Shown here one piece after another: positions 10,803-16,360 of a DNA stretch of 34,364 nt. Position 1 is the stretch's first letter, and each line of letters opens with the position of its first letter. The stretch covers positions 1 to 34,364 of the forward strand of contig JARFPS010000260.1 in assembly GCA_029288175.1 (NCBI GenBank), given 5' to 3'. Source of the stretch: Miltoncostaea sp. GTDB taxonomy: Bacteria > Actinomycetota > Thermoleophilia > Miltoncostaeales > Miltoncostaeaceae. The notes under the pieces are model-generated. The model had not been told where the DNA came from. It worked only from the letters and a program-made list of their open reading frames with translations, and made no database searches. The translations under genes were made by a program, and so were the position numbers.

Positions 10803-11894
10803 CTAGAAGCGCTTCACGACCCGATAGGCCGTGTCGCGCTGCACGGCGCGGCGCCCGGTCGCCTCGATGGCCGAAACCATCCGCTCGCTGTCCAGCCGGA
10901 AGGCGGTGCCCGCGGCGCGCACGACGTTCTCCTCGATCATGATCGAGCCCATGTCGTCGCAGCCGAACTCCAGGGCCAGCTGGCCGATGCGCAGCCCCTG
11001 CGTCACCCACGACGACTGGAAGTGCGGCACGTTGTCGAGGTAGAGCCGGCTGACGGCGAGCATCATCAGATAGTCGGCCGCGGTCGTATGCGCGTGGTCG
11101 TCGCCGCGCGCGCTTCCGCCGCCCGACTGATAGCTCCAGCAGACGAAGGCGCGGAAGCCGGCCGTCTCGTCCTGCACCTCGCGGAGGCGGCGCAGGTGCT
11201 CCACCCGGTCCTCCCAGGTGTCGACCGTGCCGTACATCATGGTGGCCGAGGCCGAGAGCCCGGCGAGGTGCGCCGTGCGCATCACGCCCAGCCACTCGTC
11301 GCTCATGATCTTCTTGGGCGCGATCTCGAGCCGCACCCGGTCGACCAGGATCTCCGCGCCGCCGCCCGGGATGGAGTCGAGTCCCGCCGCGGCCAGCCGG
11401 CGAAGCGTCTCCTCCAGATCGATGCGCGAGAAATGCGCGATGTGGAGGATCTCCGAGGGCGAGAGCGCGTGCAGGTGAATGGGGTACCGCGCCTTGATGT
11501 CGCGGAACAGGTCCTCGTACCACTCGATGCGGAGCCCGGGATGGTGCCCGCCCTGGAGCAGCAGGGCCGTGCCGCCGAGCGCGAGGGTCTCCTCGATCTT
11601 CCGGAAGATGACCCGCTTGGGGAGCACATAGCCCTCGGGGTCGCGCGGCAGCCGGTAGAAGGCGCAGAAGTCGCAGTCGGTGACGCAGAAGTTGGTGTAG
11701 TTGACGTTCCGGTCGATGATGAACGTGGCCTCGTCCGGATTGCTGTGACGGTCGCGAGCGCGCGCGGCCGCGGCGCCCACCGTGACCAGGTCCCGCGAGG
11801 CGAGCAGATCCAGCGCGTCGCGCTCGGACAACCGCTCGCCGGCGTCGGCGCGCTCGATGATCTCGTCGATGTCCGGAGGCGCGAGGGTCGTCAT
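10803..11894 (-). CDS. mqnC: Cyclic dehypoxanthinyl futalosine synthase (MqnC)
   Basis: 363 residues from ATG 11894, whose first bases overlap the mqnA stop (ATGA). MqnC is the radical SAM enzyme that cyclises dehypoxanthinyl futalosine in the futalosine route to menaquinone. The radical SAM motif is C70-VTD-C74-DF-C77, within the family stretch DRNVNYTNFCVTDCDFCAFY (61-80). HHPGL (about 119), the SIPGGGAEIL strand and the C-terminal IGQLALEFGCDDMGS stretch fit MqnC better than CofH or MqnE, and the length is typical. It is the last gene of the ubiX-menG-prenyl synthase-MqnC-like-mqnA-mqnC unit. Confidence 0.94.
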   Translation of the reverse strand: MTTLAPPDIDEIIERADAGERLSERDALDLLASRDLVTVGAAAARARDRHSNPDEATFIIDRNVNYTNFCVTDCDFCAFYRLPRDPEGYVLPKRVIFRKIEETLALGGTALLLQGGHHPGLRIEWYEDLFRDIKARYPIHLHALSPSEILHIAHFSRIDLEETLRRLAAAGLDSIPGGGAEILVDRVRLEIAPKKIMSDEWLGVMRTAHLAGLSASATMMYGTVDTWEDRVEHLRRLREVQDETAGFRAFVCWSYQSGGGSARGDDHAHTTAADYLMMLAVSRLYLDNVPHFQSSWVTQGLRIGQLALEFGCDDMGSIMIEENVVRAAGTAFRLDSERMVSAIEATGRRAVQRDTAYRVVKRF

Positions 11895-12706
11895 CGGACA
11901 AATCCTACGCGGTGTGGCTCGGCCGGAGACCTCAACAGGCCCGCGCCGGCCGCCGCCTCGAGAAAGCGCGCCAGCCCCTCTCGCTCGTCCGGGCCGAAGT
12001 CGTAGTGCAGTCGCGCCAGGTAGTCCCTCACGAACTCCGGCGTGAACCGGAAGCGGCGACTGGCCGCCTCCACGACGACGGCCGGCTCCGCCGAGTATCC
12101 GGTCCGCGCGCCCTGGATCAGCTCCGCGAGGGCGGACAGCTCGTGCGGGCGATCGCGGGCCACCTCGGCGCGAGCGGCCCACACCGCGAACACCATCGGC
12201 TGACCGGTCAGGGCGTGCCACCTCTCGGCCAGGTCCGTGTGGAAGAACCCCAGTCGCTCGCGGAGGCCGAACAGCGCCTCATCGCCGATGAGGAGCACAC
12301 CGTCATGGCTGCGCAGCGCCGTCCGGGGATCGGTCGTCAGCAGCTCGAAAGGGGGCCGGTCCGGGCCCAGCAGCAGGCGCAGCAGCGTCACCGACGTGGC
12401 GCTGTCCGGCGTGACGGCGATGGTCTCGACCTCGTCGAAGGGGACGTTGCTGAACAGCTGGATGCTGTCGACCGCACCCCGGGCGGTGACCGACGAGACC
12501 GGCAGGAGGGTGAGCAGGTCGGAGTTGCGGGCGTAGGCGATGCTCGAGACCGCCGACACATCGAGCTCGCCCGCCAGCAGCGCGTTGTTGAGGGTGGTCG
12601 GTGGACCGTCCAAGAACTCGATACCGTGCTGCGCGCGCTCGAGCCCGTGGTAGATGGGGTACATGTTCAGGGCCGCGATGCGCCCCACCCGCAGCGGCGC
12701 GCTCAC
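11891..12706 (-). CDS. mqnA: Chorismate dehydratase (MqnA)
   Basis: 271 residues from GTG 12706, overlapping the previous stop by 4 bases (GTGA) and overlapping mqnC at its end (ATGA). MqnA removes water from chorismate to give 3-enolpyruvylbenzoate, the entry step of the futalosine route. It has the periplasmic-binding-protein fold; visible family stretches are RVGRIAALNMYPIYHGL (about 6-22), LDVSAVSSIAYARN (about 48-61, the Ser-rich active-site strand), VTPDSATSVTLLRLLL and LLIGDEAL. The length matches the family (about 270-290). MqnE, which would use its product, is not in the window. Confidence 0.93.
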   Translation of the reverse strand: MSAPLRVGRIAALNMYPIYHGLERAQHGIEFLDGPPTTLNNALLAGELDVSAVSSIAYARNSDLLTLLPVSSVTARGAVDSIQLFSNVPFDEVETIAVTPDSATSVTLLRLLLGPDRPPFELLTTDPRTALRSHDGVLLIGDEALFGLRERLGFFHTDLAERWHALTGQPMVFAVWAARAEVARDRPHELSALAELIQGARTGYSAEPAVVVEAASRRFRFTPEFVRDYLARLHYDFGPDEREGLARFLEAAAGAGLLRSPAEPHRVGFVR

Positions 12707-13251
12707 CGCTCCACCGCCCGTGCTCCGACGGCCGTGGCCAGGTGGTTCGGGTCGCTGCGGTCATCGTCGGGCAGCTGCCACTCATCGGCGCCGAAGGCCA
12801 CCGCGACCTGGCAGGCGGCCGGACCCAGCCGACGCCAGTGTGGCCGCACCCGGACATCGCCGGGGAGGGCCGCTCGCGCGGCGCGGACCACCCCGAGATC
12901 CTCGACCCCCCAGGAGCCGGGGCGCCGGTCGTCGCCCTCGCCCGGCACGGGACACACCGCGCGGAGCAGCCCGGTCTCGCGAGCGAGCTCGCCGAGCGCC
13001 AGCAGCCGATCGACGACGAGCTCGGGGTCCGTGCCCGCCCCGTAGGCCAATGCGGCCTCGCTGCCCCTCCCGGATGCGTGCGCGGCCCGATGGTCCTCGA
13101 TCGAGCCCTCCTCGTCGCCGTCCCGCAACCGGTCGTCGGGGCTCGGCCCCCGGCCGTAGGCCACCACCGCGTCCGACACCCCGCCCAGGGCGGTGACGCC
13201 CTCGCCCCGGACCAGCGCGATCAGGACGTCCCGACCCGGCACGCCGCTCAC
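12703..13251 (-). CDS. Half-size MqnC/MqnE-like protein without the Fe-S region
   Basis: 182 residues from GTG 13251, which overlaps the prenyl synthase stop (GTGA); its own stop overlaps mqnA (GTGA). No named family was recognised, but it aligns with the C-terminal half of MqnC in this window. RAAHASGRGSEAALAYG (55-71) matches RTAHLAGLSASATMMYG. DPELVVDRLLALGELARETG (75-94) matches DTWEDRVEHLRRLREVQDET. RPHWRRLGPAACQVAVAFGA (136-155) matches the MqnC/MqnE stretch ending in GQLALEFGC. The region that should hold the CxxxCxxC motif is absent, and only two scattered cysteines remain (100, 147). It cannot be a radical SAM enzyme by itself. Its position suggests a helper of MqnA, MqnC or MqnE; this is inference. 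Confidence 0.8.
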   Translation of the reverse strand: MSGVPGRDVLIALVRGEGVTALGGVSDAVVAYGRGPSPDDRLRDGDEEGSIEDHRAAHASGRGSEAALAYGAGTDPELVVDRLLALGELARETGLLRAVCPVPGEGDDRRPGSWGVEDLGVVRAARAALPGDVRVRPHWRRLGPAACQVAVAFGADEWQLPDDDRSDPNHLATAVGARAVER

Positions 13252-14183
13252 GCGTACCGGTCCACGAGGCTGTCGGCGATCAGGCGCAGGGCGTCCCGGT
13301 CGGCCCCGCCCAACGGCCCCTCGAGCGCACGCCGCGCGTCGTCCACGAACCCCAGCGCCCGCTCCCGTGCCTGCGCCAGCCCCGCGTGGGCCGCGAGCCG
13401 GTCGCAGAGCGTCGCGACATCGTCCTCGGAGCGAGCCGCCGCCAGGAGCGGTCGGAGCGCGGGTTCCTCGCGAAGCGCGAGGATCACCGGCAGCGTCACG
13501 GTGCCGTCCATCAGATCCGTCCCGCGGCGCTTTCCGGTCACCTCCGGGGCGCCCGCCAGGTCGAGGATGTCGTCGAAGATCTGGAACGCCATCCCCACGT
13601 TCTGGCCGAACGCGCCCAGGCGCTCGGCGGCCTCGTCGGGTGAGCCCGCCACCAGGGCGCCCAGTCGGCACGCGCACGAGAAGAGCGCGGCGGTCTTTCG
13701 GCGGCACCGGTCGAGGTAGTCGCGCTCGGCGAGGTCCAGATCGTGAGCGGCCCGGTTCTGGTCCATCTCGCCCATCGAAAGGTCCAGCGCGGCGCCCGCA
13801 AGGGTCTGGACCGCGGCGGCGCTGCCGGTCCGGGTCAGCTCGGCGAACGCCCGCGCGAACAGGAAGTCGCCCGCTTGGACGGCCACCTCGGCCCCCTCGG
13901 CGGCCGCCACGGTGGGCCGGCCGCGCCGCATCGTCGCGCCGTCGATGAGATCGTCGTGCACCAGCGTGGCCATGTGCACCAGCTCGACCGAGGCCGCCGC
14001 CGACAGCACGGCCTCGCTCTCCACGCGGTCCTGGGGCGCCGAGCAGAACACCAGCAGCGGGCGCACGCGCTTGCCGCCGGCGGCCAGGGTGTCGGCCGCC
14101 GGTCGGGCCACCTCGGGCACGCTGCCGTCGACCGCCGACTCGAGGCGTTCCTCGCAGGCGGCGAGCAGTCGCGCCTGCGGCAG
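13248..14183 (-). CDS. All-trans polyprenyl diphosphate synthase, probably for the menaquinone tail
   Basis: About 311 residues if read from CTG 14183. The enzyme joins isopentenyl diphosphate units to make the C30-C45 menaquinone side chain. The hallmarks are AGGKRVRP (the IPP-binding region), the first aspartate motif HDDLID followed by GATMRRGRPT, the GDFLFARAF helix, and the second aspartate motif FDDILDL. The C-terminus RYA is near the usual length. The start is unclear: no ATG, GTG or TTG occurs in frame between the menG stop (14213) and GTG 14120, yet the first family helix (LPQARLLAACEERLE) begins near 14183. ATC 14198 is another rare candidate; GTG 14120 would drop the helix. Its end overlaps the next gene by GTGA. 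Confidence 0.92.
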   Translation of the reverse strand: MPQARLLAACEERLESAVDGSVPEVARPAADTLAAGGKRVRPLLVFCSAPQDRVESEAVLSAAASVELVHMATLVHDDLIDGATMRRGRPTVAAAEGAEVAVQAGDFLFARAFAELTRTGSAAAVQTLAGAALDLSMGEMDQNRAAHDLDLAERDYLDRCRRKTAALFSCACRLGALVAGSPDEAAERLGAFGQNVGMAFQIFDDILDLAGAPEVTGKRRGTDLMDGTVTLPVILALREEPALRPLLAAARSEDDVATLCDRLAAHAGLAQARERALGFVDDARRALEGPLGGADRDALRLIADSLVDRYA

Positions 14184-14212
14184 GGCGAGCTCCGCGATGC
14201 CGGCCGACTGTC

Positions 14213-14932
14213 CTACGGTCGCACCCGCCCGTGATGGAGGGCCACGATGCCCCCGGCGAAGGTGCGCCAGCGCACGTCGCCGAGGCCCGCTCCGGCGAGG
14301 CGGGCCGCCAGCTCCGGAGGGGCGGGAAAGCGCCGCACCGACGCCGGCAGGTAGCGATACGCGTCGGCGTCGCGTCCGAGAAGCGCGCCGAGGCGGGGTA
14401 CGAGGCGATCGAACCACACCCCGTAGAAGCGCTGCAGGTGGGCGGGCACGGTGATCTCGAGCACGACCACGCGACCCCCGGGGCGGACCACCCGGGCCAT
14501 CTCGTGAAGACCGCCGTCCAGGTCCACGACGTTGCGGATGCCGAACGCCACCGTGGCGGCGTCGAACGCATCGTCGGGATGGTCGAGGTTCATGACGTCC
14601 CCGACCTCGAAGCGCAGCCCGGGGCGATCGCCGGCCTTCTCGTCGGCCCGGGCGATCATCCTCTCCGAGAAATCGATCCCCACGACCTCGCCGCCCGGCG
14701 TGCGGTCGGCGAGGTCGAAGGCCAGGTCGCCCGTGCCGGTGCAGCAGTCGAGGGCGCGGTCGCCCGCCGCCAGGTCGGCGGCCGCCGCGGCCGCCCGGCG
14801 CCAGGCGCGATCGCGGCCGGCGGTCATCAGCCGGTTCATCAGGTCGTAGCGCGGTGCGATGCGGTCGAACATCGCTCTGACGTCCGCGGGTGCGAGGCGG
14901 CCCGAGGCGGCGTCGCTGACGGGCGCGCTCAT
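14213..14932 (-). CDS. menG: Demethylmenaquinone methyltransferase (MenG/UbiE)
   Basis: 239 residues from ATG 14932, overlapping the ubiX stop (ATGA). It methylates the quinone ring with S-adenosylmethionine, the last step of menaquinone synthesis. The UbiE signatures are APRYDLMNRLMTAGRDRAWR (about 26-45), the SAM-binding LDCCTGTGDLAFDLA, GIDFSERMIARADEK, and AFGIRNVVDLDGGLHEMARV followed by RPGG. The length is typical (about 230-250). With mqnA and mqnC in the same unit and no ubiquinone-specific gene seen, menaquinone is the expected substrate. Confidence 0.94.
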   Translation of the reverse strand: MSAPVSDAASGRLAPADVRAMFDRIAPRYDLMNRLMTAGRDRAWRRAAAAAADLAAGDRALDCCTGTGDLAFDLADRTPGGEVVGIDFSERMIARADEKAGDRPGLRFEVGDVMNLDHPDDAFDAATVAFGIRNVVDLDGGLHEMARVVRPGGRVVVLEITVPAHLQRFYGVWFDRLVPRLGALLGRDADAYRYLPASVRRFPAPPELAARLAGAGLGDVRWRTFAGGIVALHHGRVRP

Positions 14933-15555
14933 CGGGCGGCCGGTTCCACCGGCGCCTCGCCCCATCGCAGGAGCAGGCTGTGCGACACGCCGATGGCGTC
15001 GAGCGCCTTGCCCACGACGAAGTCGATCAGGTCGTCCATGCCTCCCGGAAGGCCATAGAAGCCGGGGCTCGCGGGCATCACCATGGCGCCGGCGCGGGTG
15101 ACCGAGGCCATGTTCTCGATGGCGATCAGCGACAGCGGCGTCTCGCGTGTCACCAGCACCAGGGGCCGTCGCTCCTTCAGGGCCACGTCGGCGGCGCGAT
15201 GGATCAGGTTGGCGGCGGTGCCGTGCGCGATCGCCCCGAGGCTCGACCCCGAGCACGGGAGCACCAGCACGCCACCCGCGCGAGCCGATCCCGATGCGAA
15301 CGGGCTGGTCATGTCGTGGAGGTCGAGCAGCGTGACCTGTCCCGGCGACCCGTGCGCCTCGACGAATCGCTCCACCACCTCGCCGGGGTCGCCCGGGCGC
15401 TCGGGCCCGCGCCCGAGCAGCTCGTGCGAGATGACGTGCGCCCCGCTGTGGGAGACACACAAGCCCACGTCGCACCCGGCCGCGCAGAGCGCCGACAGCG
15501 CCCGCGCCGCATAGGGGGCGCCGCTCGCGCCGGTGACCCCGAGAAAGACCCTCAT
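14929..15555 (-). CDS. ubiX: UbiX-type flavin prenyltransferase (MqnM-like)
   Basis: 208 residues from ATG 15555. UbiX attaches a dimethylallyl group to FMN to make prenylated FMN, the cofactor of UbiD-type decarboxylases. The family stretches are GVTGASGAPYAARAL (7-21), LPCSGSSLGAIAHGTAANLI (99-118) and a Pro-Leu-rich VTRETPLSLIAIENM. In the futalosine route the UbiX/UbiD-like pair (MqnM/MqnL) removes the carboxyl group of the prenylated naphthoate, and the partner UbiD lies at 18063-19514. The gene opens the second transcription unit, with a TACGAT box 6 bases before its ATG and no ribosome-binding site. Confidence 0.94.
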   Translation of the reverse strand: MRVFLGVTGASGAPYAARALSALCAAGCDVGLCVSHSGAHVISHELLGRGPERPGDPGEVVERFVEAHGSPGQVTLLDLHDMTSPFASGSARAGGVLVLPCSGSSLGAIAHGTAANLIHRAADVALKERRPLVLVTRETPLSLIAIENMASVTRAGAMVMPASPGFYGLPGGMDDLIDFVVGKALDAIGVSHSLLLRWGEAPVEPAAR

Positions 15556-15613: not shown

Positions 15614-16360
15614 CTATCTGAACTCGGTGCCGAGCCCGTTCAGGAAGACCGCGAGCTCCTGGTACTCCTGGTCCGTGAAGTTCGGATAGGCCGGCATTGT
15701 CGATCCCGGCGTGGTCGACCGGGGATCGATCAGGTGGTCGATCTGCCACTGGATGGTCCGGCCCTTCTCGCCTTCGTTGGTGAGGTTGGGTCCGGGGCCC
15801 GGCGCTCCGACGTCCTTGATGGCGTGGCACGCCGTGCAGCCGTTGGCCAGATAGAGCTCGAGACCCGCTTCCGCCTCGGGGGTGAGGTTCTCCAGCTCGA
15901 TGCCGGTCTCGGCGCCCGGCGACTCGGCGCCGAGGTGCGTGAGGTAGCCGAGGAAGAAGATCACCATGACGCCCGAGGTGAGCGCGATCGGCCGGCGCCA
16001 GATGCGCCGCTCGGGCCCGCGGTCGATGAACGGGGTGATGAGCAGCAGCACCATCAGAACGTTCGGGACGATGAACGTCGCCATGATCACCGGGGTGAGC
16101 GCGTTCTCGTTCTTGAAGATCTTCAGCAGCTCGAAGAGGAAGAAGAAGTACCACTCGGGCCGCGGGACGAAGTCGGTGGTGGCGGGGTTGACCGGCTCGC
16201 CGACCGGGATCGGCGCCCAGATCGCCAGGAAGATGACGAAGCCGATGGCGAAGGTCGCCACGACGAGGTCCTTGTAGACCGCGTAGGGAAAGAACGGCTT
16301 CCCCTGCGCCTTGGCGAGCGCGTAATCGCGCTTGTATGCCTCTTGCTCGCCCTTGTTCAT
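15614..16360 (-). CDS. Cytochrome b C-terminal half fused to cytochrome c (QcrC-like)
   Basis: 248 residues from ATG 16360, overlapping the cytochrome b stop (ATGA). Residues about 30-142 hold three membrane helices corresponding to subunit IV of cytochrome b6f, with the quinol-site motif PEWY (68-71). Residues about 158-248 are a cytochrome c domain with the heme-binding motif C175-TA-CH179 and a likely axial ligand Met near 222 (STMPAYP). Such a b-c fusion is known from Bacillus-type menaquinol:cytochrome c reductases, where it passes electrons from the Rieske protein outward. It is the third and last gene of the bc complex here; it carries only one heme c site, unlike the two-heme QcrC of mycobacteria. 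Confidence 0.93.
   Translation of the reverse strand: MNKGEQEAYKRDYALAKAQGKPFFPYAVYKDLVVATFAIGFVIFLAIWAPIPVGEPVNPATTDFVPRPEWYFFFLFELLKIFKNENALTPVIMATFIVPNVLMVLLLITPFIDRGPERRIWRRPIALTSGVMVIFFLGYLTHLGAESPGAETGIELENLTPEAEAGLELYLANGCTACHAIKDVGAPGPGPNLTNEGEKGRTIQWQIDHLIDPRSTTPGSTMPAYPNFTDQEYQELAVFLNGLGTEFR

Follow-up and report, generated by a model that had tools for sequence, protein, structure and literature searches.

Paralogues that have lost catalysis and serve as activators are reported for S-adenosylmethionine decarboxylase (AdoMetDC) of trypanosomes, as the prozyme, and for deoxyhypusine synthase (PMC5201418, PMC3663545). The protein described here, X, appears by analogy to be built like such dead-paralogue pseudoenzymes, as these papers and a third (PMC5106787) describe them: as with AdoMetDC and deoxyhypusine synthase, a presumably inactive copy stands beside an active enzyme. 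X differs from those systems in that its reaction centre has gone entirely, within a loss of about 130 residues, and in having a partner that is putative. The enzyme to which X compares most closely is MqnE (TIGR03700), for which crystal structures 6xi9 and 6xig of the Pedobacter heparinus aminofutalosine synthase are available. To our knowledge, no radical SAM enzyme has been stripped of its whole cluster and SAM module, retained both ends of the fold and then become family-wide in its original slot, and the literature that we searched, with partial coverage, described no comparably reduced radical SAM enzyme.

Gene position and operon context

The window (the whole analysed stretch of 34,364 nucleotides, contig JARFPS010000260.1 of Miltoncostaea sp.) encodes X as a reading frame of 182 amino acids plus stop with a GTG start, within a minus-strand run of menaquinone genes (Table 1). 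GC content per codon position in X is 0.85/0.56/0.90, as in the neighbouring genes of this contig (72% GC), which is the pattern of a coding gene. The original prediction had proposed a real gene, joined by GTGA overlaps to prenyl synthase on one side and mqnA on the other and devoid of an iron-sulphur cluster, and each of these points held: both overlaps are present, CxxxCxxC is absent from the X frame in all X loci scanned (X of the window has two cysteines) and the Radical_SAM Pfam core domain gave no match to the window protein up to E 10. Upstream of this part of the operon, the window carries ubiE, ubiX and cytochrome bc-type genes.

A chance or over-called reading frame was ruled out by 34 intact homologues and purifying selection. 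In the window the X frame extends upstream without a stop (ORF to 14571), over a stretch that overlaps prenyl synthase, and it shuts soon upstream in other genomes, leaving, for example, frames of 188-205 amino acids; on these grounds we rejected X as part of a longer gene or of a frameshifted mqnE. No radical-SAM half and no frameshift join to a longer intact gene was found at the X-bearing loci examined, prenyl synthase directly preceding X. A split enzyme with its missing part encoded elsewhere was likewise rejected, as no lone radical-SAM half was found in the genomes searched with TIGR03700: short N-terminal matches to this profile were either paired with C-terminal matches or adjacent to a longer match on the same contig, and we take them to be CofG/CofH of the F420 pathway.

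Table 1. Features of the X locus in the window, with the evidence for each (aa, residues of X)
Feature	Position	Strand	Evidence
X, protein of 182 aa derived from MqnE, radical-SAM core absent	12703-13251	-	ORF, profiles, model, homologues
GTGA, prenyl synthase stop / X start	13248-13251	-	4-base overlap retained in most homologues
GTGA, X stop / mqnA start	12703-12706	-	sequence
mqnA (chorismate dehydratase)	11891-12706	-	Pfam VitK2_biosynth 3.6e-59
mqnC, intact radical SAM enzyme, motif NYTNFCVTDCDFC	10803-11894	-	Radical_SAM + CofH_C, motif
Polyprenyl synthase ORF; gene probably starts further in	13248-14417	-	Pfam polyprenyl_synt 4.4e-64
ubiE/menG methyltransferase, inside ORF from about 14932	14213-15475	-	Pfam Ubie_methyltran 5.6e-55
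ubiX-like flavoprotein	14929-15555	-	Pfam Flavoprotein 1.1e-36
N-terminal helices of X (aa 7-22)	13186-13233	-	DSSP of models; structural alignment from MqnE residue 29; weak sequence signal
X strand 1 (aa 29-34), predicted equivalent of MqnE strand 1 before CxxxCxxC loop	13150-13167	-	models
Core-loss region of X (aa 35-50)	13102-13149	-	model comparison, full-length structural alignment
MqnE C-terminal barrel part of X (aa 46-158)	12778-13116	-	hhalign, TIGR03700 match
Signature RPGSWGVED (aa 110-118), barrel mouth, replaces MqnE PGxTGxxDL stretch	12898-12924	-	mostly invariant or nearly so, 34 homologues
Signature RPxWxxLG (aa 136-143), replaces MqnE KAYWVMxG	12823-12846	-	R136, W139, G143 invariant
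Signature FGAxxWxxP (aa 153-161), replaces MqnE FGADDLDGT	12769-12795	-	F153, G154, A155, W158, P161 invariant

Distribution and gene order

Searching whole genomes with an X profile recovered X in 38 of 42 Miltoncostaeaceae genomes, each at 170 bits or more. The next matches (at most 79 bits) were full-length MqnE/MqnC-type genes; an 86-bit match in G031 came from a second X fragment located where a contig ends, and a seemingly truncated match in G282 also reflected a contig end. Among the 399 Thermoleophilia genomes sampled, none outside Miltoncostaeaceae carried X. Two of the four family genomes without X were incomplete (82% and 69%), and the other two belonged to genus g7.

In all 34 loci examined X lay between prenyl synthase (PPS) and mqnA, the family order being ubiX-ubiE-PPS-X-mqnA-mqnC. 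Sister families have a full-length mqnE there, in the order cytochrome b-ubiX-ubiE-PPS-mqnE-mqnA-mqnC (L060) or ubiE-PPS-mqnE-mqnA-mqnC (L077); loci L043-L045, L078 and L079 read ubiE-mqnE-mqnA-mqnC, with no PPS match between. The slot of X is that of mqnE in the sister families.

Relationship to MqnE and MqnC

X had been described as matching the last half of MqnC. The similarity to the C-terminal region of MqnC and MqnE stood up and is beyond chance, but X is homologous to MqnE, which proved the nearer relative for 34 of 34 homologues. Against NCBIfam, X of the window matched MqnE (TIGR03700, E 7e-5) ahead of the CofH family (2e-4), CofH and MqnC (0.087); the TIGR03700 match, of 21.8 bits, covered the C-terminal part only (profile positions 192-303) and did not reach the curated cut-off of 434.55 bits. 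Profile-profile comparison (hhalign) aligned X 46-158 with MqnE 201-317 at E 2.5e-18, and a second, weak alignment placed X 2-23 on MqnE 27-48 (shuffle p about 0.03-0.05); this N-terminal match, weak by sequence alone, is carried by the predicted structure. Pfam returned nothing of note for X, and the CofH/MqnC C-terminal domain PF19288 was silent even at E 10, although it represents the same part of the fold.

For every X protein, the profiles of sister operonic MqnE (mean 35.9 bits) and of other MqnE (36.1) outscored both the MqnC profiles (20.5 and 10.0 bits) and the family's own MqnE (24.1); no X protein matched MqnC better. Sister-operon MqnE thus came ahead of each genome's own MqnE. Trees of the short shared part drew X as one long branch with its neighbour not settled: topology tests rejected neither MqnC (p 0.32) nor the genome's own MqnE as sister, and the AU test rejected X joined to the operonic MqnE set, which by itself was likewise not one clade. 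The derivation of X from the operonic mqnE is therefore argued from synteny and profile scores, the trees adding nothing to it. An ancestry from the MqnE kind, together with an MqnE fold, is well supported.

X shares with MqnE the motifs HRxAH, VDxLLxLxEL, GxEDL, AxR, W, LG and AQVAxxFGA, the order of elements, the operon slot and the predicted fold over its whole length. Unlike MqnE (about 375 aa), it lacks CxxxCxxC, strands 2-4 and the full stretch after strand 8, which is shorter in X. MqnC (TIGR03699), encoded two genes downstream, belongs to the same superfamily and has a similar C-terminal region, but is intact here.

Predicted fold

An AlphaFold model of X built from 34 X sequences was confident (pLDDT 93.3, pTM 0.90), and its best Foldseek match in the PDB was MqnE 6xi9 (E 3e-8). 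Structural alignment placed all 182 residues on 6xi9 residues 29-367 (Z 15.8, 2.6 A), followed by biotin synthase and HydE at Z 12-13 (best 12.9). The PDB sequence search yielded no MqnC structure, so the fold alone does not separate MqnE from MqnC.

We mapped elements by comparing, by eye, DSSP lists for the models of X and of one operonic MqnE from a sister family; the map agreed with the end points of the structural alignment. At the N terminus, predicted X helices 7-14 and 19-22 correspond to MqnE 33-41 and 45-60, and strand 29-34 to MqnE 64-74. MqnE residues from about 75 to 205, comprising CxxxCxxC and strands 2-4 (about 130 central residues), have no counterpart in X. The remainder follows in order: helix 51-59 (MqnE 209-221), strand 64-70 (225-232), helix 76-93 (238-255), strand 96-103 (258-265), helix 116-128 (283-296), helices 139-142 and 144-151 (307-310 and 312-321), strand 157-160 (325-331), helix 168-174 (349-358) and strand 178-181 (362-366). 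From this map and the full-length alignment, X is therefore MqnE minus its radical-SAM core, and the models predict that it retains the N-terminal helices, strand 1, the C-terminal barrel part and the C terminus. What had been taken for a plain C-terminal half does lack the core, but its N terminus aligns structurally with that of MqnE. In genus g9 a further 29 or so residues are gone, including the HRxAH helix, and X is therefore still shrinking there.

Conserved residues and selection

In barrels of this kind, the C-terminal ends of the strands and the loops after them form the active face. Twenty residues are invariant across the 34 X proteins, and 12 of these lie at such strand ends and following loops (hypergeometric p 0.003, with the top-face residue set drawn after the X model was seen). 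ED, R126, W139, Q148 and FG also occur in MqnE; W114, P130, W158 and P161 are peculiar to X, and the lysine of MqnE KAYW is replaced by R136. In alignments, the MqnE-invariant YGH and VDH histidines, LDN and DxDGT are changed in X to YGx, DR, LPx and WxxP. Closer pairs of X gave dN/dS of 0.14-0.32, which together with the invariant residues shows that selection acts on the X protein. Across genera, identity to the window protein is about 54-68% for X and about 53-70% for MqnA (g9 aside).

Full-length MqnE and pathway complement

As the original prediction had supposed, MqnE is missing from the window and encoded elsewhere. Miltoncostaeaceae carry full-length MqnE at a separate locus with the characteristic motif intact (NPTNICVVGCGFCAF); in the assembly of the window it is G000:C240 (L041:2648-3781), on another contig. 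Family MqnE scores about 400 bits on TIGR03700, below the cut-off of 434.55, and is divergent, with a best identity of about 44-45% in the sampled phylum and no close relative; it may stem from transfer or from duplication. The G000:C240 protein and the other members of the group read KGHWVMLGEEITSEAL where other MqnE have KAYWVMxGxKxAQVAL.

Genomes with X also encode MqnA, MqnC, a second PF02621 gene, by inference MqnD, and a PNP-family hydrolase. X as the filler of a missing pathway step was considered and rejected, all searched steps (those of the Mqn enzymes and the hydrolase) being present.

Probable loss of X in genus g7

In g7 (L082, L083, L241, L242) prenyl synthase runs straight into mqnA, its stop sharing bases with the mqnA start (ATGA, GTGA), with no remnant of X at this clean junction; X is therefore dispensable in this genus. 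A tree of MqnA, MqnC and PPS, operon genes only, nested g7 within the family (96/99); loss of X is therefore likelier than its never having been present.

As a partner of X would be expected to show released constraint, we counted g7 changes at sites invariant in X-bearing family genomes. Changes were found in MqnC (9 of 186 sites), UbiX (7 of 61) and UbiE (1 of 45), and none in MqnE (0/180), MqnA (0/64) or PPS (0/75). Other two-genome genera showed 0-4 changes in MqnC. Four of the nine MqnC changes in g7 lie beside the cluster-binding loop, and most of the nine sites also vary in sister families. UbiX stands out too, which makes this comparison no more than a lead; its signal weakly favours MqnC over MqnE as a candidate partner.

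Possible role of X

By their defining tests, X is neither a radical SAM enzyme nor MqnE as an enzyme. It is an enzyme homologue without catalytic residues that is under selection, as pseudoenzymes are; this had been one of the options proposed for it and is plausible. A small version of MqnE in the mqnE slot, with its core removed and the rest of the fold preserved, points to a dead enzyme that has found new use as a helper. We consider it probable that X is a pseudoenzyme derived from the operon's own mqnE and selected as a non-catalytic accessory of the futalosine pathway, the helper role and the lack of any activity being what we infer. In the ancestor of Miltoncostaeaceae, mqnE between prenyl synthase and mqnA would have lost its central radical-SAM core, made up of strands 2-4 and the loop for [4Fe-4S] and SAM, and the aminofutalosine synthase reaction would be carried out by the other MqnE, encoded in full length at its separate locus. 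The remnant (N-terminal helices, strand 1, C-terminal barrel strands and C terminus) would fold as a compact domain, kept by purifying selection with invariant residues of its own at the barrel mouth. Produced alongside MqnA and MqnC, X most likely has no chemistry of its own and would serve the pathway as an accessory subunit or as a helper that binds a ligand. If true, the substrate part of a radical SAM enzyme can lead a life of its own, X offers a ready test for a non-catalytic component in the futalosine pathway, and an unnamed gene of the well-known menaquinone operon receives a name.

The invariant barrel-mouth residues would fit a new catalytic site equally well. X might then be a new small barrel-derived enzyme without radical SAM chemistry, with, for example, the product of MqnA or a derivative of futalosine as its substrate, and the gathering of Y70, S113, W114, E117, D118, R136, W139 and W158 on the usual active face speaks for this. 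We nevertheless hold it to be unlikely: the pathway steps searched already have enzymes in the same genomes, g7 does without X and without a visible substitute in the operon, and the ED pair, R126, W139 and Q148 occur in MqnE too, so that part of the invariant set is inherited.

For X as an accessory, MqnC is the better candidate partner by the g7 comparison and MqnA the other. Distinctly unlikely in our estimate, as so specific a form, is a subunit of a radical SAM enzyme in which MqnE minus its reaction centre docks on MqnC. We give the same low credence to a narrower form of the pseudoenzyme reading, in which X forms a heterodimer with full-length MqnE from the separate locus and, like the AdoMetDC prozyme, activates its partner. 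Shared ancestry and the activation by dead paralogues described in PMC5201418 and PMC3663545 are consistent with such a pair, but the unchanged MqnE sites in g7 give no sign of a lost partner, and the partnership with MqnE originally envisaged found no support.

Less credible again is an idle protein whose gene persists as a relic for translational coupling, carrying ribosomes from prenyl synthase to mqnA. The ancestral enzyme has been replaced at another locus, and 4-base overlaps flank X at both ends in the window, the one at the X start being conserved; however, the low dN/dS and the invariant residues indicate selection on the protein, and g7 retains an overlap simply by the absence of X. 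A derivation of X from a duplicated MqnC, of which it would be the C-terminal half, is very improbable, for although mqnC lies nearby and the trees do not reject this grouping, the MqnE profiles prevail throughout, the slot is that of mqnE and the structure of X spans both ends of the MqnE fold.

Other observations

Full-length MqnE of Acidobacteriota loci L114, L124, L125, L127, L130, L133, L149 and L163 has Cx5CxxC (NICVYTYNCKFCSF) in place of CxxxCxxC. A contig titled Bifidobacterium breve (L102) bears a Miltoncostaeaceae X gene, and the record name looks wrong. At 15614-16360 on the minus strand of the window, a single protein matches the C-terminal part of cytochrome b together with cytochrome c domains; its neighbours, on the upstream side of the menaquinone genes, are a Rieske protein and cytochrome b, an order conserved throughout the family.
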